A stretch of 37,357 nt of DNA, taken from the IMG/VR virus record IMGVR_UViG_3300013286_000027, positions 1-37,357 of that record. One strand, 5' to 3'. Positions 3,788 through 27,419 of this stretch are shown here, piece by piece. The DNA comes from a virus. Position 1 is the first letter of the stretch. Each line of letters starts with the position of its first letter. Made by a program: the position numbers and the translations under genes. Below the pieces are notes generated by a model. It was not told the DNA's origin. It was given only the letters and a program-made list of their open reading frames with translations, and did not search any database.

Positions 3788-3804
3788 ATGGTAAATATTA
3801 GACT

Positions 3805-6800
3805 ATGGCACTATTAAAATCTGGAACAAGAATATATGGCTGCGCCGCCGTATGTAGCAATATTACGATAGGCGGCAATGCTTATGCAACAGGTTCGTTT
3901 GTTGATTCACAAGATAATAATTATTTTGTTAAACCATCTACTTTAAGCAAAATTACAAATTTGACACTGCGTGGAACAGAAGTTCCGTCTGGTGCAGAAT
4001 TGCAATTGGGTGTTATATCAGTAACTCGTCAAGGAATTAGCAGTGCAAATACTACTACTTTTTACGGGCTTTATAATAAAACAGGTGGCGCTACAATACC
4101 ATTTGCTGGAATAGGTTTAGATAGTTCCAGTAATTTATGGTTCGGAAAAGTAACCAATGCCGGAGGATCTTCACAAAGAGCAAGCAATTTATTTTATAGT
4201 GATCCACTAGGAAATTTTAACGCCACTGGCAATATAATTGCTGGAGGATCTTTTAGATCTAAGGGTAGTTATTCTGATGCTAACAATACTAGTTTTTATT
4301 TAGATCTCACCACTACTTCAGCAACTAACCATACTATACTAGCAACTGGCGTGAATACAGACACGCTAGGTTATAATAATCTATGGGGCGTATATTTAGG
4401 GGGTACTGATAATCGATACATATCAAACGGAACAGCAAACACTGGACCACTTTGGATATACAACGGCAATATATATCCAATATTAAACACATACAATGCA
4501 GTTACTGTTCAAACGTCCTCAACATTCACTAATCCAGTATTAATTAAATTAAACAATAATGATAGTACTGGTGCAACTGCCACTACACATTTAACATTGG
4601 CCAATCAAACTGGACAAAGTACAGGCATATATTGGAGATTTGGTAATCAAAACACTGTAGCTGCCAGTATACGTGCAAATGATTTAGGCGATATTACATA
4701 TAATTCTGTTAGTGGTAATTACAGATTCCAACAAGATTTTGGACCATATACTACAAATTTTTATAATACTTCAACGGCATTTATGAGCGTTGATGCGTTG
4801 GGTAATATTACACATCCTAAAAATGTTTACGCTGCAAAATTAATTGACTACGATGATAATACATACTTTGTAGATCCAAATGCAGCGTCAACTATAAATC
4901 AGTTGACTCTGAAAGGTGTGTTCACTGCTACCGTAGCAGGCACGGCAGGTACTTGGACTGACGTGGTACTTGTTACCGCAGCAAACGGCGGAACTTATAT
5001 TTCTGCGTCTCGTCCATTAAGGTCTACGGGCGAAGTTGGATATAAATGGATGACTAATACTAGTACCATTTGGTCAAACTATATACCAATCAATGATGAT
5101 TACACACTAACTTGGAGATTTAACGGTGTACCTCAGTACACTATGAATAGTGCAGGCACATTAGCTGCAATAAATCCAGGCGCATCATCAGTGCAAGCCG
5201 TGACATTTGCAGATGTTAATAATTCTGGATATTATGTTAAGCCCGCTAGTTATTCATATATAAACTCGATGGTATTGGGCGGCGGAGTTACTAGTGTCAC
5301 CACTGCAACTGGATTAAAAATTGTTACTCCAAATTCTGATGCATACTATAATACATTATATTGGAATAATTGGAATTGGCAAACTGATGCTAGTGGTGCA
5401 GCAACACTATGGATTGGAACCAGCACTCGTACTGTAACAATTAATGGCAACGGAGCCTGGGCGTTTAATCAAACAACGGTACCTGGTGATATGGGTATGA
5501 TTGGTGGCATAGTAGTCAATGGCACAGGCAGCACTCAACTCAGTGTTATGAAAGGTACTACTTCTGGCTTTGCTGTTAGAGTTTCAGATTCAGTAGTTGG
5601 AGATTTTTCACTTTATGATAAAGCCTATGCAAGTGCAAGCGTATGGCGTAGATCTATTAATTCTAGAGAAGGCACTGTTGGTATTAATGCAAATGCCAAC
5701 CCCACATATGGGTTAACTGTTGGTGGCGCTATATCTGCAAATAGTATAGTTAATGATTTCAATCCTGCATATACAATAAATTTTACAGGCACATCCGTAT
5801 TAAGTTCATTAAACGCAGTTCAATATGGTTGGTATTTAAATACTGGCACAGGACTTGCTCTTACGGCAGGCAACACATTTGAAACTTCGGCAGTATTTGG
5901 TTCAGATTACGTTTTAGGTTCAGGAAGTTTAATAGATTTATTACTTTGGAATTTTCCCACAACTGTTGAAACTTATAATTCATTAAGCACTGCATGGACA
6001 GTAGACGCCGTAACTGATGTTAAGCCTCTATTCACTAGTCAAAAATCTCTTAACAGTGCGGCTACTGGCAACTACGTATTACCCTCTGGTGTTAGTAAAC
6101 AAAGCGTTAGATTTACGTGGGCAGCATTTAGTAATAGAACATGGGATGCTTTATTCATCACTGCCGTTTCTGGAACAACTCCATTATCTATAATTATTGA
6201 AAGTGCTACATCTTCAGGTGGTCCGTGGACGACTCATGTAAACAACACGAGTATAGGTACTACTGGTGTTTCAGGATATCATTATCTTAGAACTCAGGGT
6301 ACTGTAACTGGAGCATATTTTAGATTGACCATTGTAGGTAACGGAGCTTCTGCCGTTACTCTTTACAATATAAGTTTGTTGGGGTCAAGGGGCGGAGCAT
6401 CTGGTTTTGCTAATCGATTGTTAAATTGGGATGTAAACAAAAACATCACCACATATGGTAATATAACAACTAAAATTGTTTATGATACCAATAATACAGC
6501 ATACTATCTAGCACCATCGGTTACTTCTAATTTATATACAGCAACTTTTGCTGGTGATGTACTTACACAAGGACAGGGAAGATTTACTGGATGGAAAGAT
6601 GTTCCTAATATTGCAGCAACTAGATACAGTGGAATTGGAGTTGAAGTTGGTGTATCGGGAGTCACTGGATTAATTTATTCAATTGATAGGACGTCAGGAG
6701 TCTACTCTCCACTTGAGATATATGGATCTAATATTAGTTTATTACCAAGCACTGGTAACGGATTGTATTTGGGTGGCACATCCTGGTACGACGTAGACAA

Positions 6801-9755: not shown

Positions 9756-9929
9756 ATGGAAAAACTTACACTTACAGTTGATGCTCAAACATTTAATATT
9801 ATAATGACAGGTTTGGAAGAATTACCACATAAAATTAGTCGTAAAATAATTGATGAACTTGTACAACAAATTCAGCCACAAGTAAAAGACAAACCGCAGG
9901 GTCCTTTGTCTGATAAAGTTCTTAATTAG
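9756..9929 (+). CDS. 57-residue hypothetical protein
   Basis: This is a short gene with an AAGGA Shine-Dalgarno before its ATG. The protein begins MEKLTLTVDAQTFNIIMTGL and continues as a predicted amphipathic helix (ISRKIIDELVQQI) with a polar tail. The pattern, a strand followed by a helix containing LEELPHKIS, resembles tiny conserved genes next to fibre genes in related phages; no function is known. The last 8 nt overlap the convergent Nudix gene. The clear ribosome site and coherent composition argue that it is real. Confidence 0.55.
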   Translation: MEKLTLTVDAQTFNIIMTGLEELPHKISRKIIDELVQQIQPQVKDKPQGPLSDKVLN

Positions 9930-10371
9930 TTTTAAAAATATCTAATAACACTTCTAATTTGGCCTTAACGACTTTATTGTTAAGGCTATTTTTTACGCCT
10001 TGATGAAGTGGTTTTGGCCAGCAATCATAATTGCACCAAGCATATCCATTATGTTCAGAATTTAATATAGGAATAAATTCTTTTTCAACAATCAGCACGT
10101 ATGTGTTATATTGAAAATTATTATCATTAGAAGTAAACAATTCTAGTGGAATAATTTTTTTTATTTTAGGTTTAAAACCTATTTCTTCTTGAATTTCTCT
10201 ATGTAAAGAATCTACAACTGTGGTATCAGATGGTTCTTTTTTGCCACCCACTAGTCCCCATGTACCTAAAGTTTTTTCATGGGTGCGCATTAGCAATAAA
10301 AATCGTTGAGTATCTTCAGCTAAGAATAATCCGCCACTACATATAATTTGATTTAAAGTACTAACCGCCAT
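9922..10371 (-). CDS. Nudix hydrolase
   Basis: The product is 149 residues from the ATG at 10371; a TTG 6 nt upstream (10377) is a possible alternative start. The core is a Nudix box: GGKKEP (42-47) then REIQEEIGF (58-66), with the metal-binding REx2EE residues intact. The spacing between the Gly and the REx2EE part is one residue longer than the textbook box, and the acidic residue in that stretch is Asp rather than Glu. Nudix enzymes hydrolyse nucleoside diphosphate-X compounds; the substrate (oxidised dNTP, capped RNA, ADP-ribose or other) cannot be read from sequence. It overlaps the end of the gp15 gene by 19 nt, so it is co-transcribed with neck genes and probably expressed late. The C-terminal coding part contains the opposing operon's terminator. 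Confidence 0.85.
   Translation of the reverse strand: MAVSTLNQIICSGGLFLAEDTQRFLLLMRTHEKTLGTWGLVGGKKEPSDTTVVDSLHREIQEEIGFKPKIKKIIPLELFTSNDNNFQYNTYVLIVEKEFIPILNSEHNGYAWCNYDCWPKPLHQGVKNSLNNKVVKAKLEVLLDIFKTN
9962..9994 (+). terminator. Rho-independent terminator of the tail-fibre operon
   Basis: A perfect 8-bp stem GCCTTAAC / GTTAAGGC (9962-9969 with 9979-9986) and a 9-nt loop are followed by TATTTTTT. The U-tract is on the + strand side, so it stops rightward transcription from the fibre operon. It lies inside the 3' part of the convergent Nudix gene. Confidence 0.75.
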
Positions 10372-11738
10372 GACCAATTATTATATAATCCCTCAAAACT
10401 CTTGCTCCAATGCCCATCGTCCCACTTGTATTGTATACCCGTATATGAATTAGTTATATAGGTAGTGTCAGTAACCGTTGCAGAATTGAATATAATTGAC
10501 CATTGTTCGCCATCCCATTCAATTATATCGTTAGCATATGCCACAAAATCAGTTCCAGTACTATTCTTCCAAGCAGCGGGGCCGCTATAATTTGGTAGTG
10601 CATGATCAGGATTTATATCTTCTAATATTAAATATCGCGTATTGGCAACTTTACTACTAGGATTAAAAGTATCAGGATTAATAATTGCATCTACAGATCC
10701 CCTGCCATTGATTAAGGTATTACCAGGAATAGTATCTACATCAAAATTTAACAACATTTTTGTTTCATCATTAGCATCAAGTGTTATAAACGCTACTATT
10801 TCACTACCACTGGGCGTAGTTAACCGTATTTGACTTAATCTTGCTGTAAATTTTCCTGGATATTTGTCTAAAATAGACAGCCAAGAGACTGGTGGTTGAT
10901 TAACGTCATCACCTTGAGATGAATAAGATACAGATTCTAATGTTGCAACACCGTTTAATACCAAAAGGTTAAAATTATTAGGAGTAATTATAACATTAGT
11001 TGTAGGTTCTGTAAATATCTGTGCAGCATATCCAGATCGTAAATCATCAAGTGCCGTATCACTGTTTATAGGTAAAAATACATTACTAATAATTTTAGTA
11101 ATTACATTCATTTGTTTAACTTTAGCTGGAGGAGTAATCCAAACTGGGGCCTCAAATACTAAACTAGATATTTCTAAATTTTCATCTAGACCTTGCGGGA
11201 CTGTCCTAGTACTCCACTGACCTTGATCAGTAAGAGTTAACATACTTAGACTAGTCCAATCAATATAGTTGTCTGTAGTTTGTAAATCCAAAGCAGGATT
11301 AAAAATGTAAGCAATTTGTTCTACAATTTGAAATTTTTGATCGCTATTTGTAGTCCATATATCTGCAGAAAAATTTATTTTATATGGACTAGGCATTATA
11401 CGTTCTACAGTATAATTGGCACCTTGAGTATTAAGTAAATTTCCGTTAGCGTCAACATCACGTTCTCTAATATTAACTTTACTGACAAATGTGGGATCTT
11501 GTAATCTGCTACGATCGTATTTAAAATCTTTTATATAACAAGCAATAAACGGTGCAGATGATAGTACATTTTCACTACCTTTCTTTAATACTTGGGCTGT
11601 TTGCCTAGTTAAGTCGCCATATCTGACTGGGATTTGAATTAGGTTACCCTTGCCATCTTTATAGCTAAAGTTGCTCATGACTCTTATAAATTGAGTCACG
11701 TATCTTCGTATTTGTCCGTCATAAAAATAATCTGACAT
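10353..11738 (-). CDS. gp15: Tail sheath stabiliser / tail completion protein, gp15-like
   Basis: The product is 461 residues; T4 gp15 is 272. The N-terminal half matches the gp15 pattern: YFYDGQIRRYVTQ (4-16; T4 has YFYNSSFRRYATL), MPSPYKINF (115-123), FQIVEQIAYIFNP (136-148) and FEAPVWITPP (195-204). In T4, gp15 forms a hexamer at the top of the finished tail, holds the last sheath ring, and joins tail to neck. Residues about 220-461 are an extension absent from T4 and present in long aquatic-phage versions. It ends with two aromatic motifs (IIEWDGEQW, YKWDDGHW). The ATG follows the gp14 stop by 1 nt, so the two are translationally coupled. Confidence 0.85.
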   Translation of the reverse strand: MSDYFYDGQIRRYVTQFIRVMSNFSYKDGKGNLIQIPVRYGDLTRQTAQVLKKGSENVLSSAPFIACYIKDFKYDRSRLQDPTFVSKVNIRERDVDANGNLLNTQGANYTVERIMPSPYKINFSADIWTTNSDQKFQIVEQIAYIFNPALDLQTTDNYIDWTSLSMLTLTDQGQWSTRTVPQGLDENLEISSLVFEAPVWITPPAKVKQMNVITKIISNVFLPINSDTALDDLRSGYAAQIFTEPTTNVIITPNNFNLLVLNGVATLESVSYSSQGDDVNQPPVSWLSILDKYPGKFTARLSQIRLTTPSGSEIVAFITLDANDETKMLLNFDVDTIPGNTLINGRGSVDAIINPDTFNPSSKVANTRYLILEDINPDHALPNYSGPAAWKNSTGTDFVAYANDIIEWDGEQWSIIFNSATVTDTTYITNSYTGIQYKWDDGHWSKSFEGLYNNWSWRLVL

Positions 11739-11739
11739 A

Positions 11740-12954
11740 TTAATTATCTGCTTTAGGTTTTAGTGCTTTACTTAATGCTTGTTTTTGATTTACAATTTTA
11801 CCAGCAATAGTTGAAGTTGAATTGTTGTTAATAAATCCAGTTTTTTGAGTTTTCCTAACTTGTGCGCCCATCGTTATGGCTGCATAATCATTAGCACCAG
11901 TATTATCCATGGTCATCCTAACTTTTTCCTCAAACATTTTCCAATGTTGTCCATTGTATCTAAACAATCTATTAGGCAAATAGTCAGTTCTTAAATAAAA
12001 TTGACCATTAACTGCGGATCTAGGAAATTCAATACCTTGTCCAAAAGGAATGCCATTTGGCGGAACTCCGTCACCAGTCAAATATCCTACATACATATCT
12101 CTAGATGGACTTTGTAATACTATGCTGGCATCATAATTTGAATTTTCAATGCTAACATCAATATTATTATTAGATACATCGGCAATATCTATTAATGCAT
12201 CATCCTTCAATGGCAGCACATATAACGCTTTGGTGTCATACCCACTTTGTGGAGCATCAAGTTCGGCTTGTGCAATAATTTGATTATTAATTTCAATGCT
12301 TTTAGAATATGTGCTAAGTAAATCTCTGAGTGTACTGCCGTTGCCGTTACCGCTGTCAACATCTAAAATTTCTTTAAATTCTTGACTATCAACTAATGGC
12401 GAACATTTGGCTTTTAATAAATGTGGATACCATGTAGGACTAAATCCTGCTGCTGGCCTAGTTACTTCTTGCACTACGTAAAATCTTTTTAATGCTCGAA
12501 TATTATCTTGATCTAACCCGTATTCGTCTTGTAAATGCGGCAATTCTAAAACATCCCCTGCCATAAGTTTTCGACTTAATGCATCAACACTGCTTTTAAT
12601 GTGAAAATGTATCATAATATTGTCAGTGTTCAACATAATACCAAATTGTGTAAGATTAAAATCTAAATCTTGCATGGTATAAATTCCACGAATTACATAA
12701 ACATCTGGATCATATTTTCTATCCCTATTTTCCATCAATAAAACATCTTGAATTCCTAACTCAGGAATAAGATTTCCACTAGTGTTAGGCTGTGAAGGTG
12801 AGGATTCGCCCCCGACTTCATCGGGACTAAGGGGGCCTAAATATTTGTGAATATAGATATCAGTCCCGCCCACTTGGAATTGCTCGTTAATTACACGATC
12901 TATAAATTTAAAATCATTGCCCTTTTCAGGACGGTACATTGAGAGTCTAGGCAT
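11740..12954 (-). CDS. gp14: Neck protein gp14-like
   Basis: The product is 404 residues; T4 gp14 is 256. The N-terminal half fits the gp14 family: TDIYIHKYLGP (31-41), QDVLLMENRDRKYDPDVYVI (69-88), FGIMLNTDNIMIHFH (104-118) and AGDVLELP (132-139). In T4, gp14 sits with gp13 between the portal and the tail and is needed for head-tail joining. Residues about 200-404 are an extension; residues 317-338 hold the word FYLRTDYLPNRLFRYNGQHW, found in long aquatic-phage gp14 proteins. The gene is the first of a leftward operon (gp14-gp15-Nudix). Its ATG is 7 nt from a late-like TTAAATA box and has no Shine-Dalgarno. Confidence 0.82.
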   Translation of the reverse strand: MPRLSMYRPEKGNDFKFIDRVINEQFQVGGTDIYIHKYLGPLSPDEVGGESSPSQPNTSGNLIPELGIQDVLLMENRDRKYDPDVYVIRGIYTMQDLDFNLTQFGIMLNTDNIMIHFHIKSSVDALSRKLMAGDVLELPHLQDEYGLDQDNIRALKRFYVVQEVTRPAAGFSPTWYPHLLKAKCSPLVDSQEFKEILDVDSGNGNGSTLRDLLSTYSKSIEINNQIIAQAELDAPQSGYDTKALYVLPLKDDALIDIADVSNNNIDVSIENSNYDASIVLQSPSRDMYVGYLTGDGVPPNGIPFGQGIEFPRSAVNGQFYLRTDYLPNRLFRYNGQHWKMFEEKVRMTMDNTGANDYAAITMGAQVRKTQKTGFINNNSTSTIAGKIVNQKQALSKALKPKADN

Positions 12955-12961
12955 AGTACTG

Positions 12962-12968
12962 TATTTAA
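12962..12968 (-). promoter_or_regulatory. Late-type promoter box for gp14 (TTAAATA on minus strand)
   Basis: TTAAATA, read on the minus strand, resembles the T4 late promoter TATAAATA. It ends 7 nt before the gp14 ATG, and the text following it (cagtact) contains no Shine-Dalgarno. It abuts the oppositely oriented box for gp13. Confidence 0.5.
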
Positions 12969-12975
12969 CTAAATA
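12969..12975 (+). promoter_or_regulatory. Late-type promoter box for gp13 (CTAAATA)
   Basis: CTAAATA ends 5 nt before the gp13 ATG with no Shine-Dalgarno between. With T4 spacing (box centred near -10) transcription would begin at or next to the start codon. With the adjacent minus-strand box it forms a near-palindrome TATTTAACTAAATA. Confidence 0.5.
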
Positions 12976-12980
12976 ATCAT

Positions 12981-13739
12981 ATGACTGATACCGAAAACGC
13001 CCGACACATAATTATAGAATACGTTAAAACCTTCCTAGGTAGTGGTATGATTGACGTGGAATTAGACCCCGTTCATTATAATGTTGCAATTGACAAATCA
13101 TTAGCAAAATATCGTCAACGCAGTAGTAATGCTGTAGAAGAAAGTTTTGGATTTTTAACCTTAAACACAGACACTAACGATTATGTAATGCCCAAAGAAG
13201 TTGTGGAAGTTAGACAATTATTTCGTAGAAGTATTGGCAGCAGAACTGGAGGTGGAGATGGAGGCAGCTTATTTGAGCCATTTAATTTAGCCTACAGTAA
13301 TACATATCTTTTAGCCTCTACTAATATGGGCGGACTAGCAACTTATTACGCATTTGCCAGCTATCAAAAACAAGTTGGAAAAATGTTTGGAGGTGAGATC
13401 AATTTTACCTACAATAAAACTAGTAAAGTTTTGAATATAATGCAACGTCCCAGATCAGGCGAAGAAGTTTTAGTTTGGATGTATAATTATCGTCCAGATT
13501 TTAATCTACTAGATGATGTCTATGCAGGGCAATGGATTAAAGACTACGCACTGGCCAATGCTAAGGTAATTTTAGGCGAAGCTAGAGAAAAATTTGGAAC
13601 CATTGCTAGTCCTCAGGGAGGAACACAGTTAAACGGCACCACCTTGAAAACTGAAGGCAAAGCTGAAATGGAAATTTTAGAGCAAGATTTAATTAATTAC
13701 AAAGAGGGCGGCACCCCGCTAACTTGGGTAACTGGATAA
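12981..13739 (+). CDS. gp13: Neck protein gp13-like
   Basis: The product is 252 residues; T4 gp13 is about 309. Family signs are the N-terminal helix (ARHIIIEYVKTFLG), DVELDPVHYNVAIDKSLAKY, NDYVMPKEVVEVRQLFRR and the C-terminal block WMYNYRPDFNLLDDVYAGQW then DYALANAKVILGEAREKF. T4 gp13 binds the portal vertex and, with gp14, closes the filled head and accepts the tail. Here it points away from gp14/gp15, which it precedes on one strand in T4. The ATG is 5 nt from a CTAAATA box and lacks a Shine-Dalgarno. Residues 93-100 contain a Gly-rich loop (GGGDGGS). Confidence 0.82.
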   Translation: MTDTENARHIIIEYVKTFLGSGMIDVELDPVHYNVAIDKSLAKYRQRSSNAVEESFGFLTLNTDTNDYVMPKEVVEVRQLFRRSIGSRTGGGDGGSLFEPFNLAYSNTYLLASTNMGGLATYYAFASYQKQVGKMFGGEINFTYNKTSKVLNIMQRPRSGEEVLVWMYNYRPDFNLLDDVYAGQWIKDYALANAKVILGEAREKFGTIASPQGGTQLNGTTLKTEGKAEMEILEQDLINYKEGGTPLTWVTG

Positions 13740-15244: not shown

Positions 15245-15542
15245 CACCTTCCTTGTGCAGTATGCGTTGACAGTTAGCGCATACAGTCTTTAAATTTATA
15301 TGTCGATGATTTTTTAAATTTCCGTCAACATAGAATACGTTAAACTGTTCAGAAAACTTTGATGTGAAATTACATTTTTCACAAATTAATTTTTTCTTAT
15401 AACCTGCCTGCTCCCATAGTGGTTTTTCTTGTATCCTTCCTCGGCTACAATGGTCGCACTTGGACCTATAAAACGCCATGCCTTCCTTGTAGTAGTTAAT
15501 TGCTACTGGTCGTTGGCCACATTCTTTACATAAATTTCTCAT
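15207..15542 (-). CDS. HNH-like zinc protein, probably without nuclease activity
   Basis: The product is 111 residues with four CxxC pairs: C5/C8, C29/C32, C54/C57 and C88/C91. The second half follows an HNH-nuclease scaffold (CEKC ... VDGNLKN ... NLKTVCANC), but the residues normally forming the catalytic Asp-His before 'DGN' are Phe70-Tyr71, and the His after the last CxxC is Gln92. It is therefore more likely a DNA- or RNA-binding or regulatory zinc protein than a working endonuclease. It is transcribed leftward. A TTAAATACTATT sequence lying 30 nt upstream is very close to the T4 late consensus. It shares a 99-nt divergent region with the sheath gene. Confidence 0.65.
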   Translation of the reverse strand: MRNLCKECGQRPVAINYYKEGMAFYRSKCDHCSRGRIQEKPLWEQAGYKKKLICEKCNFTSKFSEQFNVFYVDGNLKNHRHINLKTVCANCQRILHKEGVKWRQGDLVPDL

Positions 15543-15572
15543 ATCCGCCCTTTTAGTGCCCTTTTGTAATAG

Positions 15573-15579
15573 TATTTAA
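15573..15579 (-). promoter_or_regulatory. Late-type promoter box for the zinc protein (TTAAATA)
   Basis: On the minus strand the sequence reads TTAAATACTATT, close to the extended T4 late consensus TATAAATACTATT. It lies 30 nt before the ATG at 15542, leaving room for a normal leader. Confidence 0.55.
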
Positions 15580-15602
15580 CCGCTAATTTTTTGGTTTTAC
15601 TG

Positions 15603-15609
15603 CTAAATA
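15603..15609 (+). promoter_or_regulatory. Late-type promoter box for the tail sheath (CTAAATA)
   Basis: CTAAATA is followed by 32 nt that include the strong Shine-Dalgarno AAGGAG before the sheath ATG at 15642. Predicted initiation is near 15615. This is the conventional leader-plus-Shine-Dalgarno version of the box seen elsewhere in the window. Confidence 0.6.
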
Positions 15610-15641
15610 AAACAAAGTAATCCACTAAGGAGATTTTACTC

Positions 15642-18600
15642 ATGGCCAATCTAAGTTCACCAGGAATCCAAGTTAAAATTATCGATGAGAGTTTTTATAC
15701 TCCCGCTGCGCCTGGAAGCACACCTCTTATTTTTGTTGCATCGGCTGAAAATAAATCCAATGTTTCTGCAACTGGAACTGCTCAAGGCACATTAAAACAA
15801 AATGCAGGAGCAGTATATGTTATCACAAGTCAACGTGATTTAACAAATACTTTTGGTACGCCAACATTCCAATCAGACACTTCTGGAAATCCAATTCATG
15901 GAGATGAAAGAAATGAATATGGACTGCAAGCAGCCTACAGTTTATTAGGTATCAGTTCTAGAGCATATGTTGTACGTGCTGATTTGGATTTAAATCAACT
16001 AAAACCCACATCTACGGTGCCTACTGGTGTTCCAGAAGCAGGGTCATATTGGATCAATCCTGCACAAAGTAAATTTGGTATTAATGTTTGGTCAACTGTA
16101 ACTAATCAATTTACGCTGGTAACTCCGTTAATTATTAATGATGAAAATCAAGATACTGCAATGAATACTCTTGGTACTGCTCCTGCTGATTCTTTTGGGC
16201 AACAAGGCAATTTTGCAATGCGTGCCACAATGAATAACGGATGGGAAGGCATATCAAATGCAGTTTGGTATAAAACAATTGCTGCAACAAATGCATGGGT
16301 TCCTGTAGCCGGCGGATTTGATGGCGGTAAAAAAGTAAAAATGTCTCCGCATACTGATTATCCAGACTTTACCAGGGGCGGCGCAACACCTGCAATAACA
16401 GGCAGTGTTTGGATTAAAACAACAACTCCTGGTAATGGTTCTAACTGGAATGTAAAATATTACAACGGCTCTACCAATCAGTGGACTACTAAACTTGCAC
16501 CAGTGTATACTAGTTCTAAAGATGCTCTTTATGCTTACGATTCTGCTGGAGGTGGTAAGAACATTGCAACAGGTACATTATTTGTAGAAGCAGATCCTAA
16601 TCATTATGGACTTACGACCGCTACTAATGCTACGGCCCAGTTCTGTGTTTGGAGATATAATGGATCTGGAACAACTAGCATCACTAGTGACGCATCAACT
16701 TTCAGTACTTCAACTCAGTCAACATTTTATATTAGACAAACTACAGCGGGTAGTAATATATGGGGATCAACCATAGCAATTGCTGTGTCAGGTGATCCAA
16801 TTAATCCTGTAGCAGCAAACGTTCCAGCAGCAATCAGTGCCGCTGGATTGACTAATATAGTTTCTACATTTGATGCAACTACCAATAAGCTAACAATTAC
16901 ACATACAACTGGTGGAAATTTTGAATTAGCAAATGGTACTACAAATATTTTAACATCATTAGGATTTAATCCCTACATTTATACCCCGTCAACTATGATG
17001 GCTCAGGGCACTACAAATTTATATAGAGCCCCACTTGCTGATTTTGATGGTCGTTACTTTAACTTTATTGCAACCAGTTGGATGCCATTGATGTATGATG
17101 CAACTACTGCAACTCCATCGACTGCTCCTAAAGACGGTACACTATGGTTTGACAGTGATATTAAATCAGTAGATATTATGTATCACAATGGTACTAATTG
17201 GATTGGTTATAAAACAGCGTTCCCATCAACTGACCCAAACGGTCCTATTATTTCCGCAACTGAGCCTACTAAAATTGGTGGACACAGCGATGGTGGAAAT
17301 TTAGCAACTGGTGATATCTGGATCAGTACTGCTAATCCAGATCATTATGGTCAAGACATTTATGTCTGGGATAATGTTGCAACTGAATGGGTTAAACAAG
17401 ATCCTACTGATCAACATAGTCCAAATGGTTGGGTTTTTGCTGATGCACGCTGGAGTGGAGCGGGCGACGATGTAGTTCCTGATTCTACACAAAAATTATT
17501 AACATATGATTATGTAGATCCAGATGCTCCAGATCCTGCACTGTATCCTCGTGGCACACGTTTATGGAATACACGTAGAAGTGGCAATAATGTTAAACAA
17601 TATCACTCAGCATATATTGACAAAATGGGAACAAACCCAAGGATGTCTAACGTAAGCATGAGCGGATACTTTGCCGATCGTTGGGTTTCTGTACATAACG
17701 TTAATGAAGATGGTTCAGGAATTTTTGGCCGTTATTCTCAACGTGCTCAAGTTGTTCAAGCATTTAAGGCATTGATTAATACTAATAATGCAATACGCGA
17801 CACTGAAACATTAAGATTTAATTTAATTGCTTGCCCTGGCTATGCAGAAACAATTGCTAATTTGGTTAATTTTAATACAGATATTGGTCAAACAGCATTT
17901 GTATTAGGTGACACACCATTCCGTTTAGAACCAACTGGCACAGCATTGACTGCTTGGGCCAATAACTCACACAATGCTTTGGATAATGGCGAAGTTGGAG
18001 CAGTTACTAGTGACAGTTATCTAGCATTGTTCTATCCAAGTGGTTATACAACTGATAATGTAGGAAAAAGTATTGTGGTCCCTCCAAGTCACATGATGTT
18101 GAATACTATCGTTAACAGTGACAGTTTAAGTTATGAGTGGTTTGCCCCTGCAGGATTACGTAGAGGTGGCATTATTAATGCTACTTCTGTAGGTTACATT
18201 AATGACATGGGTGAATTCCAAAAAGTAAGTCTATATCAAGGATTGCGTGATGTTTGCTCACAGATTAAACTTAATCCATTGGCTACTATGACAGGGGTTG
18301 GTACAATCAACATGGGACAATACACAAGGGCAGCGGCAGCAAGTTCTTTAGATAGAATTAACGTTGCTAGACTAGTAGCTTACTTACGTAGACAACTAAG
18401 TGTATTATCAAAGCCTTATTTGTTTGAACCTAATGATACACAAACACGTAATGAGATTCGAGGAGCTGTAGAAAGTCTACTACTGGAACTAGTTGGTCAA
18501 CGAGCATTGAACGACTTTGTGGTAGTATGCGACACTTCAAATAACACTCCGGCAAGAATTGATCGAAGCGAATTATATGTAGATATTGCGATTGAGCCAG

Positions 18601-19401: not shown

Positions 19402-19409
19402 GATAAATA
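19402..19409 (+). promoter_or_regulatory. Late-type promoter box (GATAAATA)
   Basis: GATAAATA, 6 of 8 to the T4 late TATAAATA and intact over its last seven bases except the first, lies between a terminator and the next ATG. Only 5 nt (attat) separate it from the start codon and no Shine-Dalgarno is present. Confidence 0.6.
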
Positions 19410-19414
19410 ATTAT

Positions 19415-22400
19415 ATGAACAAAGCTTTCAATGATTTTTTGAGTGGTGTTGGTGAAGGATTAGCGGGCGCCGGCGGCCCCAACATGAAAAATTATACTCA
19501 TGCAACAAAATTATATGTTGAAGGTAGTTATGCTCGCGCCCCAAAATTTAATCATTTATATTTTGTAGCATTCAATTTTAATGAGAAAGTAATAAGAGAT
19601 CCAAGTTGGTTAAAATCTGGAGTTAGAGAAGTTGGATTATTGGTTAAAAGTTTTTCATTACCTAGGTTTAAAATTAAAACTGAGGAGATGAATCAGTATA
19701 ATAGAAAAACCCAAGTACAAACTAAAATAACTTATGACCCGGTTACTTTAGAATTTCACGACGATAACAGTGAAATTACCAATGGACTTTGGAAAAATTA
19801 TTATAGATATTACTATACAGATAGTATATATGGTGGTAAAGACGACGTTGCTCAAGTAAAACCTAGTCAAATAAGTTTAGGCGAAAAATTATTTGGAGGA
19901 ATATTCAAACCTGGATCTAAACGTACAGCAACACAACAATTAACTAAATTTCCAGAGGCATTTACCAATAACAAATATGGAGAAAAAACATATCCATATG
20001 GTTTGGATAATAATCAAAGTTTGCCATTTTTTAAAAGCATAGATGTTTTTATTTTACATCAACAAAAATTTACACAAATGACTTTGATTAATCCTAAAAT
20101 TACCAGCTGGGATCATGACGAAGTTAGTCAAAGTGACAGCTCAAAAGTCATGAAAAATAAAATGACAGTGGTTTACGAAAGCGTATTATATAATGATGGG
20201 AGAATTGGCAAGGGCAGTGACTCTGGAGTATTTGCAGAAGCATTTTATGATACTGAGCCTAGCCCATTGAGTATAAGTGGACTGGGGGCAGCATCGCTAC
20301 TTGGGCAGGGTGGACTAATAGCAGGTTTTGAAGATATATTTGGCGCCGATGGATCTGTTGCACAAGGAAATTATTTATCGGCTATATTACAGGCAGCAAC
20401 CCTATCTAAAAATTACGATAAACAAAGTCCTGAACAAAGAGGAGCTGAAGGTTATAGCATGTTAGCCACCGGTTTAAGAATTGCGGCATCATCAAGAGAA
20501 ATATCAAGCGATCTAGCATCTTATTATTCTAATGGCGGGTTTGGAATTTACACTAATCAATTTTCAAAAAATAATTTAGAAGAAATCCCTACAGCGCCAG
20601 TGGTCTTATTACCGCCTGTGCTAGCACCTGTACCAGCAACGGGGTTACCGCCGGGCACTGGGTATGGCAGTGCCAACGATCTAGCCCAGTTCCCCACAGT
20701 TCTACCTACTGGAGCATTAGCTAGTCCAGTAGAAGGCGCCAAAGCTGATTCTTTACAAGAAATACAAACGGAAATAGCTTCCCTTATTACATTTAAGAAT
20801 AATTTGAATAGTCAAAAGGTGACCGCAGACCAATATTATGCCCAAATAGATGCAAGTACACCCACAGCGTATCAAATAGCTGATGGCGATTACATTCGTG
20901 GTAGTAATTTTTATATATTTGCTATTCAACAAGGAAAATCTCCAGATGATGCCTTCGCCCTCGCTGAGCAAGATGCAAAGGCAAGACTTGAAGAGGGCAA
21001 TAATGCGTTAAAGTTTGTTCAAGGTGTTCAGACAACTATTGCATCCAATATAGCAAAAATAGATAAGACTAGTAGTAAGCTGAATGATTTATCTTTAGAC
21101 ATAAACACAAATTCTAATTTATATACCGCAGAATATATTCAAAATAATAGAGAGTTTGGAGCCGCCGTTTACGGAATCCAGGGCGATGTAACCATAAATG
21201 CAGTCATGTTGGAAATAATAAAAAGTCAAAAACTTGGCGAAATACTTATAAATTCTGCGCATATAAAAGATCAGATAACTGCCAACCGAGAACAACAAAC
21301 TATATTTAACAACGATCTTAATGGGGCTGTTTCTAGTTATAATAGCATTGAGAACGAGACTAAAAAACATTGGGCTGCGGTCAACGAAGATAAAAAATAC
21401 CCTGTCACAGACAGGCTTGAAGAAGTTTATTGGAAGTATTCCGGAAATAATTTTTTAAATTCGGATTCGTCTAAAGATAAAAAGATAGCGACAATTGCAA
21501 GTGTGATGAATATAACTAGTGAGCAAGCGACAGTAGAATACGATAAAATAATTGCTCAGGGTCAAGAAAATTATTTTGCCGAATTAAATAAATTCAAAAA
21601 TAAAATTTCAGATTTATCATCAAAAATCAATAACTTACATTCTGATAATAGTGACAACATTGCGAATAAAACTGAAAGTAATATGAAAATTGGCACAAGT
21701 ACGATTGTGATAGGCGCTCCTATCAAAAATTCAGCTTCATCTCAGAATATCGCTCCTAGTAACCCTGATAGTTCGGGAGTAATTACTACTGGAGATACTA
21801 CTGTTGTCCCCAGTGTTGCTCCAGCAGTAACCGGCAACCCTACTATTAGCCCTACAGCCAATACAGTTGATCAACTGAAAGCCGAAATCGAAGCAATTAA
21901 AGCGCGCCAGTCCGCAGCAAAAGACGCAGTTGCTGCTAGTACCGCCCAGCTTGCTAATCTACAAGCCAACGCTGACGCACTCAAGGCTCAACCTACTGTT
22001 ACTGAAGCAACAGTTACTAAAATGGTTGAAAGAGCAGCAAACACAACAGCATGGGGAGGTGAATTAACTCCTGAGGAGATGGCGTTCGTAATAGATCCAA
22101 AAAAAAGTATACCAGAAATATCAATGGGAGATTTAGCAAAAGAATCAACAAAGTTACTGGCCGCTTACGATGCCGCCTACAAACAAGGTAAGGAAATACA
22201 AAAATTAGCTGATGCCAAAATTAAACAATTGGAAGCGGCTGAAAACTCTAATAATAAAACAAAGATTGCCCAATTTAAAGCTGAAACTGACGCATTGCAA
22301 AATGCCCTAACTAGTGTGATTGAATATCAAAATAATATTAATGCACAATTACAAAAGAATACCAATATAAGAAACAGTTTCAATGACCAGGGACAAACGT

Positions 22401-22753
22401 CTGCACCAGTAACAAAAACATCAGCCGCTGTTACGTACGATCCAATTAACAATGAAACTAACGTTATTATTACAGAAGGTAAACCCCCAGACTACAAACC
22501 TAGCGCTAAAGAAGTGGCGCAACGGACAGCAGGCCAAGCGGCTCTTGAGGCACAAATTGCCCAAAATAACGCAAAACTTGATGGACAAGCAATTACAATA
22601 TTTAAATATTTTCAAAAAACCAATCCTTCTATTAAAACTCCAGAAGATGCAGTACGTTATATACAACAATGGAATAATACTCCAGGTAATTTTCCAATTC
22701 CAATAAATCCAGGCGTTATCCGGCATATTCTTAAAATTAAAATAAACAAATAA
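19415..22753 (+). CDS. Tail-tube-fold baseplate/tube initiator-like protein with long coiled-coil extension
   Basis: The product is 1112 residues. Residues about 35-290 look like a tube-fold domain: HLYFVAFNFN (42-51), LLVKSFSLPRFKIKTEEMN, KITYDPVTLEFHDDNSEITN, then SIDVFILHQQKFTQMTLINP and MKNKMTVVYESVLYNDG. That layout fits T4-like tube caps or initiators (gp48/gp54), which link baseplate hub and tube. A proline-rich linker (about 395-425) follows, then long helical, coiled-coil-prone regions (about 440-720 and 816-1010) with a low-complexity Ser/Pro/Thr linker between. T4 gp54 is only 320 residues. It could be an initiator fused to a tape-measure-like part; no transmembrane segment is obvious. 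The exact orthologue is uncertain. Confidence 0.6.
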   Translation: MNKAFNDFLSGVGEGLAGAGGPNMKNYTHATKLYVEGSYARAPKFNHLYFVAFNFNEKVIRDPSWLKSGVREVGLLVKSFSLPRFKIKTEEMNQYNRKTQVQTKITYDPVTLEFHDDNSEITNGLWKNYYRYYYTDSIYGGKDDVAQVKPSQISLGEKLFGGIFKPGSKRTATQQLTKFPEAFTNNKYGEKTYPYGLDNNQSLPFFKSIDVFILHQQKFTQMTLINPKITSWDHDEVSQSDSSKVMKNKMTVVYESVLYNDGRIGKGSDSGVFAEAFYDTEPSPLSISGLGAASLLGQGGLIAGFEDIFGADGSVAQGNYLSAILQAATLSKNYDKQSPEQRGAEGYSMLATGLRIAASSREISSDLASYYSNGGFGIYTNQFSKNNLEEIPTAPVVLLPPVLAPVPATGLPPGTGYGSANDLAQFPTVLPTGALASPVEGAKADSLQEIQTEIASLITFKNNLNSQKVTADQYYAQIDASTPTAYQIADGDYIRGSNFYIFAIQQGKSPDDAFALAEQDAKARLEEGNNALKFVQGVQTTIASNIAKIDKTSSKLNDLSLDINTNSNLYTAEYIQNNREFGAAVYGIQGDVTINAVMLEIIKSQKLGEILINSAHIKDQITANREQQTIFNNDLNGAVSSYNSIENETKKHWAAVNEDKKYPVTDRLEEVYWKYSGNNFLNSDSSKDKKIATIASVMNITSEQATVEYDKIIAQGQENYFAELNKFKNKISDLSSKINNLHSDNSDNIANKTESNMKIGTSTIVIGAPIKNSASSQNIAPSNPDSSGVITTGDTTVVPSVAPAVTGNPTISPTANTVDQLKAEIEAIKARQSAAKDAVAASTAQLANLQANADALKAQPTVTEATVTKMVERAANTTAWGGELTPEEMAFVIDPKKSIPEISMGDLAKESTKLLAAYDAAYKQGKEIQKLADAKIKQLEAAENSNNKTKIAQFKAETDALQNALTSVIEYQNNINAQLQKNTNIRNSFNDQGQTSAPVTKTSAAVTYDPINNETNVIITEGKPPDYKPSAKEVAQRTAGQAALEAQIAQNNAKLDGQAITIFKYFQKTNPSIKTPEDAVRYIQQWNNTPGNFPIPINPGVIRHILKIKINK

Positions 22754-23578: not shown

Positions 23579-24064
23579 ATGACTAAACGACTTAATGAAA
23601 TTTTTGACCTCCCTGACACTAAAGAACCTTTAGTAATTCCTGAAGTTGAAGAAACTTCCTCCACACCAGTGATTGATCTACAAGATCAGTTAGAAGAATT
23701 TGATAAAATTGCAGCGGCATTGCCCAGAGTAAAGGGGCTGGGCGATATGAGCGACCAGGAACTGGACGGATTAGCTAGTAAAGCTGAACAAGCCTATGAT
23801 GATTTAATGGATCTAGGTATGAATGTTGAGCCAAAATATGGTGCTAGAATGTTTGAAATTGCCGCACAAATGATGACAGCCGCTATTACTGCTAAGACTA
23901 ACAAGATTGATAAGAAGCTAAAGATGGTTGATTTGCAACTGAAAAAGCTGGCAATTGATAAGAAGGGCGGTAACCAAGAGAGTGGTAATACCGTGGAAGG
24001 ACAGGGATACATCCTAACAGATCGCAATAGTATCCTAGAAAGATTAAAGAAATTGGATAAATAA
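23579..24064 (+). CDS. gp16: Small terminase subunit gp16-like
   Basis: The product is 161 residues, near the 164 of T4 gp16. It has an acidic disordered N-terminus (IFDLPDTKEPLVIPEVEE), a long central helical pair (DQLEEFDKIAAALP; YGARMFEIAAQMMTAAITAKTNKIDKKLKMVDLQLKKL) and a C-terminal tail with GQGYILTDRNSILERLKK. T4 gp16 forms rings that recognise concatemeric DNA and stimulate gp17. Gene neighbourhood supports this: the large terminase lies two genes downstream. Initiation is weak (no clear Shine-Dalgarno), 8 nt after the gp4-like stop. Confidence 0.8.
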   Translation: MTKRLNEIFDLPDTKEPLVIPEVEETSSTPVIDLQDQLEEFDKIAAALPRVKGLGDMSDQELDGLASKAEQAYDDLMDLGMNVEPKYGARMFEIAAQMMTAAITAKTNKIDKKLKMVDLQLKKLAIDKKGGNQESGNTVEGQGYILTDRNSILERLKKLDK

Positions 24065-24070
24065 AGTATC

Positions 24071-24667
24071 ATGAAAAATTTTAAAGAATATCTATCAGAA
24101 TCCATTGCTGACAAAAAATATAATTTTCGTGTCAAAGTGGCGGGTGATTTCTCTGCTGATCAAGAAACTAAGTTAAAGACCATGCTTGAGAAATTTCAAG
24201 TAGATGACTTTAAAAAGTTAAGTGTGACGCCGGTGCAAAAGTTTCCTCTAGACTTTCCACAAATTAAAAACTGCGAAGTTTCTATTTTTGAAGTTACAGT
24301 AAACTACCCAACCACCCCACAAGAATTAAAAGAATATTTAGGCGCAGGATTAGCAGTTAATGCATCCATGTTAGCTGTAGTAACTCCTGGTATGCCTAGC
24401 GAAGAATACCAGCGTGAAGAACCCAAACGCGAAGGCGCACTACTAACTGATAGTGAATACAAAGAAGCACCAAACGCAAATTTTGATGACTACTATGGTT
24501 CAAAATACAATAGTGGGTTTGTCAAAGAACTCAACGATATCTTAAAATTGCAGCGTAAAGAGCGCGGCGAAATCATACCAGAAACTGCCGCCGCTGTTTA
24601 TAATACTGACACTGATGGAACTAAAACAGAAATTTTAAAGTTTCAGTCACAAGACCTAAGGAAATAA
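24071..24667 (+). CDS. Head-associated hypothetical protein with targeting-like N-terminus
   Basis: The product is 198 residues. The first ten, MKNFKEYLSE, resemble the capsid-targeting peptide of T4 internal proteins (MKTYQEFIAE), and LSE fits the (L/I)xE site cut by the prohead protease gp21. The rest looks like a small alpha/beta domain (YNFRVKVAGDFSADQETKLKT; VSIFEVTVNYPTTPQELKEYL) followed by a polar tail (YGSKYNSGFVKELNDILKLQ). No function is recognised. Position between small and large terminase supports a head/packaging role. A GATAAATA sequence lies 7 nt before the ATG but is also the end of gp16, so I do not call it a promoter. Confidence 0.6.
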   Translation: MKNFKEYLSESIADKKYNFRVKVAGDFSADQETKLKTMLEKFQVDDFKKLSVTPVQKFPLDFPQIKNCEVSIFEVTVNYPTTPQELKEYLGAGLAVNASMLAVVTPGMPSEEYQREEPKREGALLTDSEYKEAPNANFDDYYGSKYNSGFVKELNDILKLQRKERGEIIPETAAAVYNTDTDGTKTEILKFQSQDLRK

Positions 24668-25793: not shown

Positions 25794-25801
25794 ATTAAAT
25801 A
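25794..25801 (+). promoter_or_regulatory. Late-type promoter box for the large terminase (ATTAAATA)
   Basis: ATTAAATA begins 1 nt after the T-run of the terminator and ends 5 nt (acagc) before the gp17 ATG. No Shine-Dalgarno is present. The terminator-box-ATG order repeats the arrangement at 19376-19415. Confidence 0.55.
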
Positions 25802-25806
25802 ACAGC

Positions 25807-27399
25807 ATGGCAAACAAAAATCTCGACGGCGTTCTAATAAAGAAAGCAAATACCACTCAAAAGTGGACTGAAAAAGACATTGAGGATCTATTGAAATGTC
25901 AAGATCCTGTAACAGGTCCTGAATATTTTTTAAAGAACTTTTTCTTTATACAGCACGCTACGCTAGGTAGAATCAAGTACGACGCATACACATATCAAGA
26001 AGAACTATTACACAGCTATCACACCAATAGATTTAGTGTTAATATGTTAGGTAGGCAGATGGGTAAGACTACCACTGCCGTAGGATACTTGTTATGGTAT
26101 GCAATGTTTATGCCCGACAGCACAATTCTTATTTGTGCCCACAAGTACACTGGCGCACAGGAAATTATGCAACGTTTAAGGTATGCGTATGAGACTTGCC
26201 CAGACTGGATACGAGCAGGTGTTATTAACTATAACAAACAAAGCATTGAATTTGAAAATGGTTCACGTATTGTGGCACAAACAACAACAGAAACAACGGG
26301 TCGTGGTATGTCTGTATCATTGCTATACTGCGACGAGTTTGCCTATGTTGAACCTAATATTGCCGTAGAGTTTTGGACATCCATTGCACCAACACTGGCA
26401 ACTGGTGGTAAAGCCATTATTACCAGCACGCCAAACAGTGACGAGGACCAGTTTGCGCAGATCTGGAATGAAGCTAACAAACGCACTGATGAATATGGTA
26501 ATACCACCAAGCTGGGAAAAAACGGTTACTATCCTTACATGGCCATATGGAGTCAGCATCCAGACCGTGATGAAAAATGGGCTGGGGAAATGCGCAGTCA
26601 GTTAGGTGACGATCGGTTCAATCGTGAGCACGAATGCAAATTCCTAATCTTTGACGAAACATTAATCAGCGCATCATGTTTAATCGCCTTAGAGGGACAA
26701 GAGCCCACTATGAAAATGGGTCAGGCACGTTGGTATAAAAAGATTAATCCCACAAGCACATACATTATCAGCTTGGATCCTAGCCTAGGAACTGGTGGAG
26801 ATAATGCTGCTATCGAAGTAATAGAAGTTCCTAGCATGGATCAGGTAGCGGAGTGGCATCACAATCTAACTCCCGTGCAATCTCAGGTTAGAATATTAAG
26901 AGATATAGCAAATCATATTGAAGAAAAATGCCAAGCGGCGGGTGTAACATCCAGCATTTATTACAGTGTAGAAAATAATACGCTGGGAGAAAGTGCATTG
27001 ATTGCTATTGAGGCATTGGGTGAAGAATCATTTGCTGGCTTGTTTTTAAGCGAACCAGTTAAACGCGGACATGTTAGGAGATTCCGTAAAGGATTTAATA
27101 CTACTCATAATAGTAAAATTGCAGCCTGCTCCAAATTAAAGCAGATGATTGAAACTAAAAAACTTAAAATACGCAGCAAGCCTTTCATCAGCGAGTTAAA
27201 AACTTATGTAGGTGAAGGTGTTACTTTCAAAGCCAAAGCTGGTCATCATGATGATCTAGTATCATCTATGCTGTTGGCCGTAAGGATGATCATGACTTTA
27301 CAGGAATGGGATCCTACAGTTTACGATAAAATGCGGGATCAAGAAGGGTTAGAAGACCATGATTTACCCATGCCTATATACATCAGTACGCCCTTTTAA
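25807..27399 (+). CDS. gp17: Terminase large subunit gp17-like
   Basis: The product is 530 residues; T4 gp17 is 610. ATPase half: Walker A GRQMGKTT (82-89), Walker B LLYCDE (171-176, with D175 E176) and coupling motif TSTPN (206-210). Nuclease half: SLDPSLGTGGD (D324), SVENNTLGE (E389) and GHHDDLVSS (D482/D483), the expected three acidic residues of the RNase H-like headful nuclease. The protein pumps DNA into the prohead and cuts concatemers. The N-terminus lacks part of the T4 leader, which explains the shorter length. The promoter and terminator context suggests its own late transcript. Confidence 0.95.
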   Translation: MANKNLDGVLIKKANTTQKWTEKDIEDLLKCQDPVTGPEYFLKNFFFIQHATLGRIKYDAYTYQEELLHSYHTNRFSVNMLGRQMGKTTTAVGYLLWYAMFMPDSTILICAHKYTGAQEIMQRLRYAYETCPDWIRAGVINYNKQSIEFENGSRIVAQTTTETTGRGMSVSLLYCDEFAYVEPNIAVEFWTSIAPTLATGGKAIITSTPNSDEDQFAQIWNEANKRTDEYGNTTKLGKNGYYPYMAIWSQHPDRDEKWAGEMRSQLGDDRFNREHECKFLIFDETLISASCLIALEGQEPTMKMGQARWYKKINPTSTYIISLDPSLGTGGDNAAIEVIEVPSMDQVAEWHHNLTPVQSQVRILRDIANHIEEKCQAAGVTSSIYYSVENNTLGESALIAIEALGEESFAGLFLSEPVKRGHVRRFRKGFNTTHNSKIAACSKLKQMIETKKLKIRSKPFISELKTYVGEGVTFKAKAGHHDDLVSSMLLAVRMIMTLQEWDPTVYDKMRDQEGLEDHDLPMPIYISTPF

Positions 27400-27412: not shown

Positions 27413-27419
27413 CTAAATA
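27413..27419 (+). promoter_or_regulatory. Late-type promoter box (CTAAATA)
   Basis: CTAAATA ends 4 nt (cagt) before the ATG at 27424. No Shine-Dalgarno lies between. The string TAAATACAGTA is shared with the gp14 upstream region on the minus strand. Confidence 0.5.

Follow-up and report, generated by a model that had tools for sequence, protein, structure and literature searches.

The neck-gene gap and its two boxes

The window, by which we mean the whole 37,357-nt stretch of DNA analysed here (IMG/VR virus record IMGVR_UViG_3300013286_000027), holds a 26-bp gap at 12955-12980, with the letters AGTACTGTATTTAACTAAATAATCAT, between two divergent neck genes, a gp14-like ORF on the minus strand and gp13 on the plus strand. 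The features at this locus are as follows.

12955..12980, both strands: entire divergent intergenic gap; 26 bp, nearly all of it made up of the two boxes
12962..12968 (core 12962-12967), minus strand: putative late-promoter box toward gp14; reads TTAAATA on the minus strand and ends 7 nt before the gp14 ATG; gp14-facing core in 77/77 gaps
12969..12975 (core 12970-12975), plus strand: putative late-promoter box toward gp13; reads CTAAATA and ends 5 nt before the gp13 ATG; gp13-facing core in 77/77 gaps
12981..13739, plus strand: gp13, head-tail adaptor Ad2 (phrog_211, E 1.1e-31); ATG at 12981, with a transcription start predicted from T4 spacing on the A of that ATG (12981)
11740..12954, minus strand: gp14-like virion structural protein (phrog_11591, E 3.1e-80); ATG at 12954-12952, with a transcription start predicted at 12956-12954
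10353..11738, minus strand: tail sheath stabiliser gp15, second in the leftward unit (PF16724 T4-gp15_tss, E 5.2e-25; phrog_227)
9922..10377, minus strand: Nudix hydrolase, third in the leftward unit (PF00293, E 6.2e-12; phrog_1198)

An earlier sequence-only reading of the window had gp14, gp15 and Nudix pointing left, unlike T4, where 13-14-15 lie on a single strand, and the three ORFs (11740-12954, 10353-11738 and 9922-10377) are indeed all on the minus strand. The T4-like single-strand order is present in HTVC008M and Aeh1. The least secure of the neck names is gp14, for which PHROG gives just "virion structural protein"; we assigned it from its position in the neck cassette together with a weak match in a profile comparison with three T4-type gp14s (E 0.0012, probability 19%). 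The AlphaFold model of this protein was poor (pLDDT 44.5), and a PDB profile search with it returned two chance-level matches and nothing useful.

TATTTAA (12962-12968) and CTAAATA (12969-12975) abut directly, with their cores, TATTTA and TAAATA, 2 nt apart. The sequence-only reading had described these as opposite late boxes touching within 26 bp between gp13 and gp14-gp15 and forming a near-palindrome; the sequence confirms the arrangement, which recurs in 77/77 readable gaps, and TATTTAACTAAATA is nearly symmetric. T4-type late promoters need no -35 element, and for either box the place where one would be expected is taken up by codons of the opposite gene. No Shine-Dalgarno (SD) sequence was found upstream of either gp13 or gp14 in the window. 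Across the whole window the T4 late-promoter motif TATAAATA (up to one mismatch) was not enriched (100 found, 114.65 expected), so the case for the boxes rests on their position. By position, 7/31 window genes carry a TAAATA core 4-8 nt upstream of the ATG (P about 2e-12, using the window's own motif frequency), and each of the nine TAAATA sites in intergenic DNA of the window points to a start codon at most 100 nt downstream.

In their TAAATA core with variable first bases, facing virion genes downstream, the candidate neck boxes match T4-type (gp55) late promoters. We regard the gap as a real and conserved pair of predicted divergent late promoters, in which the box is ordinary and its fusion to both start codons is unusual. 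With 5 nt between box and ATG at gp13 and 7 nt at gp14, T4 spacing would make the two messages leaderless or give them a leader of about 2 nt. We therefore favor, with fairly good confidence, a compact divergent T4-type late-promoter pair whose messages would be leaderless or nearly so and translated without an SD sequence.

Conservation and spacing of the box pair

A scan of viral contigs yielded 587 confirmed gp14-like relatives, from which the best 80 of 587, that is, the closest relatives, were used. Four loci (L002, L031, L049 and L057) were left out because the contig carried no gp13 match, and L001 is the window itself; 76 relatives, with gp14 63-88% identical to that of the window, plus the window gave 77 gaps, comprising 56 distinct sequences. 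A TAAATA core faced each gene in every one of the 77 readable gaps (the window and 76 of the best 80 of 587 relatives). Relatives of like gene order lacking both boxes, which the sequence-only reading had named as evidence against itself, were searched for and none was found, the boxes being present in 77/77.

The distance from box to start codon is also conserved. The gp13 box lies exactly 5 nt from the ATG in 73/77 gaps, as measured by script, and the same distance applies in L009, L011 and L076 if an in-frame upstream ATG is used as the start. The exception is L021, which has no canonical box close to gp13; the nearest canonical core lies 84 nt from that gene. All 73 near-box gp13 rows start with ATG, and four of them carry an SD-like string. 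The gp14 box is at most 8 nt from the ATG in 65/77 gaps, most commonly at 7 nt (54/77), and these near-box rows all start with ATG (65/65) and lack an SD (0/65). ACT directly before the gp14 ATG is invariant, which could reflect a 3-nt leader instead of none. Among the 12 rows with a distant gp14 box, 11 have an SD, eight start with ATT and two with TTG. The SD-led, distant-box gp14 genes with an apparent ATT start are at L010:5001, L016:5001, L023:4460, L028:3102, L043:5001, L048:895, L067:5001 and L076:5001, and those with an apparent TTG start are in L017 and L018; no in-frame ATG, GTG or TTG was found within 12 codons upstream of the ATT starts.

The divergent neck order with both boxes was also found in three marine contigs from two MAGs (L204:3480, L205:4956 and L206:4957; MAGs labelled Rickettsiales and Pelagibacter), where gp13 is 57-58% identical and its box is 5 nt from the ATG. 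The MAG labels hint, though weakly, at alphaproteobacterial hosts, or else reflect mis-binning; as binning of phage contigs is weak evidence for a host, we claim none.

The spacing between the two box cores falls into three ranges: 2-6 nt in 45 of the 56 distinct gaps, 15-40 nt in six and 483-680 nt in five. Six loci have gaps longer than 500 nt. Four of these hold NUMOD/HNH endonuclease ORFs between the boxes (L008:1259-1687, L021:513-1193, L028:2353-3096 and L029:4270-4995), L025 holds an Mtd_N ORF, and L076 an ORF without assignment. Within L028 and L029, it is the inserted ORF that seems to have acquired the gp14 promoter (TAAATA followed by 7 nt that finish with ACT and lead into ATG), and gp14 is SD-led.

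These spacings bear on the proposal, made in the sequence-only reading, that a polymerase at one box blocks the other and so balances neck-protein production. Considering footprint size and the 26-bp gap, two polymerases could probably not occupy both neck boxes together, and the tight 2-6 nt spacing of most distinct gaps speaks for a function of their closeness. Bacterial bidirectional promoters described by Warman and colleagues (PMC12825309) share with the neck gap pseudo-symmetric DNA, divergent transcription and mutually exclusive binding; they differ in that host polymerase binds one symmetric promoter in two orientations, whereas the window has two complete, abutting candidate phage late boxes, both placed at leaderless distance. 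In the available part of that study, one binding event excludes the other at such promoters in E. coli, and competition arises if one direction is strongly activated, in which case the other can be repressed, but none was seen at basal activity (PMC12825309). Moreover, the boxes persist at 15-40 nt (6/56) or 483-680 nt (5/56), and gp13 is far from gp14 in PA5oct, PBECO4, K64-1 and Vibrio 2.275.O. Blocking may occur at the neck pair, but it is not required, and since the boxes are mostly kept when parted, exclusion is not what appears to conserve them. That closeness is itself functional, with one polymerase at a time setting gp13 against gp14-gp15, strikes us as rather unlikely, and it would be an addition to the favored promoter pair and not its opposite.

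The almost symmetric TATTTAACTAAATA would also suit an operator bound by a dimeric regulator. The distance between the half-sites ranges from 2 to 680 nt, for which reason this candidate was rejected; lone boxes also precede other genes, and we consider an operator highly improbable.

Near-box genes across the phage group

The leaderless distance of the neck boxes from both ATGs, which the sequence-only reading had missed, appears to be a property of the whole phage group. We examined a genome-wide set consisting of the window and 12 long relatives (12 of 16 relative contigs, some minus their last bases), with 846,051 bp and 666 ATG ORFs of at least 90 aa. In 97/666 ORFs (hereafter near-box) a TAAATA core stops 4-8 nt short of the ATG; these ORFs belong to 23 families and include neck, terminase, tube-like and fibre-like proteins. 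There were 99 such occurrences against 10.4 expected from upstream positions 9-63, with 51 at exactly 5 nt, and because the 666 ORFs include orthologues from related contigs, P values overstate independence. Eight near-box families are recurrent, each being present in at least 7 of the 13 sources. A second, broader group of boxes lies 12-45 nt before the ATG (far-box). In the window itself, boxes were found before these further genes.

3792..3797, plus strand: box upstream of the fibre-like ORF (ATG at 3805); box-to-ATG distance 7 nt
19404..19409, plus strand: box upstream of the 1112-aa ORF (ATG at 19415); box-to-ATG distance 5 nt
24058..24063, plus strand: box upstream of the 198-aa ORF (ATG at 24071); box-to-ATG distance 7 nt
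25796..25801, plus strand: box upstream of the terminase large subunit (ATG at 25807); box-to-ATG distance 5 nt
27414..27419, plus strand: box upstream of the 782-aa virion ORF (ATG at 27424); box-to-ATG distance 4 nt
15573..15609 (cores 15573-15578, minus strand, and 15604-15609, plus strand): second divergent box pair; 30 and 32 nt from the ATGs, an SD having been found only toward the sheath gene; not a leaderless-type pair

The 1112-aa ORF (19415-22753) directly follows a 211-aa tube gene, and its tail-tube matches are confined to the N-terminal part (phrog_4542, residues 40-263).

The near-box ORFs differ from the others in several respects. An SD-like string precedes 1/97 near-box ORFs, compared with 71/97 far-box and 185/465 boxless ORFs, and with gp13 and gp14 excluded the near-box count is 0/79 (79/641 ORFs). 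Under the same exclusion, the upstream neighbor is divergent for 22/74 near-box and 35/426 boxless ORFs, and a co-directional gap of at most 10 nt precedes 13/52 near-box and 210/391 boxless ORFs; near-box genes are located at what would be the starts of transcription units. With gp13 and gp14 again excluded, a pyrimidine directly precedes the ATG in 77/79 near-box ORFs, compared with 51/97 far-box and 259/458 boxless ORFs, as expected if transcription places a pyrimidine at -1 and a purine at +1. As the genome-wide sets took ATG starts only, they cannot test start-codon choice. In a coarse count, the triplets that stand 4-8 nt downstream of a box and begin a long frame were ATG in 65/96 and other codons in 31 (ATA 11, GTG/TTG/CTG 0); many of the 96 may be there by chance.

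Since near-box genes all but lack SD sequences (1/97), some other aid to translation would be needed, and TAAATA near the ATG could be that aid, an A/T-rich unstructured stretch for ribosome binding with transcripts that begin further upstream. Against this, composition-matched hexamers are much rarer in that position if shifted registers of the motif are set aside (TAAATA 97, ATAAAT 53, AAATAT 42, ATAATA 17). In addition, near-box genes are found at unit starts, an identical box occurs 12-45 nt upstream of SD-led genes, and at the neck a promoter further upstream would have to sit inside the other gene, the gap being 26 bp. We consider this reading improbable.

The boxes might instead be promoters that start transcription off the T4 rule, or be joined by a second promoter, so that leaders are longer and the messages not strictly leaderless. 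T4 spacing is, after all, borrowed, and the gp14 spacing is mostly 7 nt and not 5. Against longer leaders, the most purine-rich position after far boxes is offset 6, both in the clade (73/95) and in T4 (26/32), a pyrimidine precedes the near-box ATG in 77/79, and there is no SD for a longer leader to serve; we judge longer leaders unlikely, if less so than a translation signal. With the favored leaderless reading, the T4 rule (-13 to -6) and a purine at offset 6 would place the start on the A of the ATG at 5-nt spacing. The clade-wide leaderless class is the most interesting part of this analysis; we infer it from sequence, where the internal contrasts are strong.

Predicted late transcription and its counterparts in other phages

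In the favored mechanism, host RNA polymerase carrying a gp55-like late sigma factor would read each TAAATA as a -10 element, sending transcription leftward through gp14-gp15-Nudix and rightward from gp13 onward. The first nucleotide would be the A of the AUG or lie about 2 nt earlier, and ribosomes would bind the 5'-terminal AUG, so that both messages would be translated free of SD. We infer promoter activity, start sites, leaderless translation and gp55 dependence from the DNA letters and their comparison. The gp55 families phrog_234 and phrog_12791 were each found in 9/25 records, namely G001 (a 164-kb relative), the jumbo relatives W01-W07 and T4. The window, a 37-kb fragment, gave no gp55 match, nor did 15/16 IMG/VR relative contigs searched; such absence from the window and 15 shorter relatives may be what is expected of fragments. 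The gp45 clamp family phrog_223 was found in 2/8 records searched (T4 and Vibrio 2.275.O) and not in G001.

The late genes of T4 provide the textbook example of a sigma switch in transcription followed by SD-led translation. The T4 late promoters (TATAAATA at -13 to -6, read by gp55 with gp33 and gp45) resemble the window clade in having a TAAATA core before virion genes, a gp55 family in the lineage and a purine-rich offset 6. They differ in that 21/24 far-box ORFs of T4 are preceded by an SD and 0/180 of its ORFs have a near box, compared with 97/666 in the window clade. According to the sections available, late boxes span -13 to -6 in T4 and late promoters read CTAAATA in Aeh1 (PMC1524935), and jumbo phage CBB has a gp55-like factor and 35 sites with ATAAATA upstream of structural genes, with gp33 and gp45 undetected (PMC5259590). 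The late promoters of CBB and GAP32 (ATAAATA) and Aeh1 (CTAAATA) thus use the same box as the window clade, but those sections report neither leaderless spacing nor abutting neck promoters for these phages (PMC5259590, PMC1524935).

We also counted near-box ORFs in other phages, with records that are all partial except that of T4: T4 0/180, Atu_ph07 2/514, PA5oct 1/260, Phosso 0/203, Vibrio 2.275.O 1/188, PBECO4 1/154, SCTP-2 4/134, K64-1 0/73, HTVC008M 2/52 and Aeh1 0/43 (49 kb of Aeh1). The near-box share is therefore 0-4% in T4 and the nine other phages; the three marine MAG contigs, also partial, have 2/14. Like the window, Atu_ph07 and Phosso have divergent gp13 and gp14 with outward boxes, the cores being 4 nt (Atu_ph07) and 14 nt (Phosso) apart. 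They differ in having longer leaders, with a plain SD before Atu_ph07 gp13 and both Phosso genes, and so would not be leaderless. In PA5oct, PBECO4, K64-1 and Vibrio 2.275.O a box precedes gp14-gp15 and gp13 is distant, and in SCTP-2 no box was found just upstream of gp14. For phage AR9, the part of the source available gives leaders of 26-491 nt, and its authors remark that phage transcripts are often leaderless; AR9 aside, we found no pertinent report of late promoters of the leaderless kind in jumbo or T4-like phages in the open-access literature searched, nor any paper on Atu_ph07 there.

A late box fixed near the ATG in at least eight recurrent families would couple late transcription to leaderless translation. 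The clade would also supply a genomic test set of leaderless and SD-led orthologues (e.g., gp14) for what a virus gains from a leaderless start, and the near-ATG box would sharpen start-codon calls on such contigs. A more speculative scenario, to which we give only a small chance, is that an environmental jumbo-phage clade hard-wired the late-sigma box to the start codon and split its late regulon into leaderless and SD-led genes, with an altered ribosome or initiation-factor state directing late translation to leaderless virion mRNAs; the neck pair would then be the most compact form of this design.

Divergent box pairs were seen at other loci as well. The second pair of the window lies at 15542-15642, flanked by the sheath gene on one side and a 111-aa ORF on the other, and seven long relatives have divergent gaps of 94-105 nt with boxes about 27-37 nt from the genes on both sides, their correspondence to this interval being by layout. 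In two relatives, a leaderless-type abutting pair separates a divergent phrog_36119 protein from a 186-189-aa protein, for which no PHROG match was found, at L172:611-1890 and L189:5267-6543.
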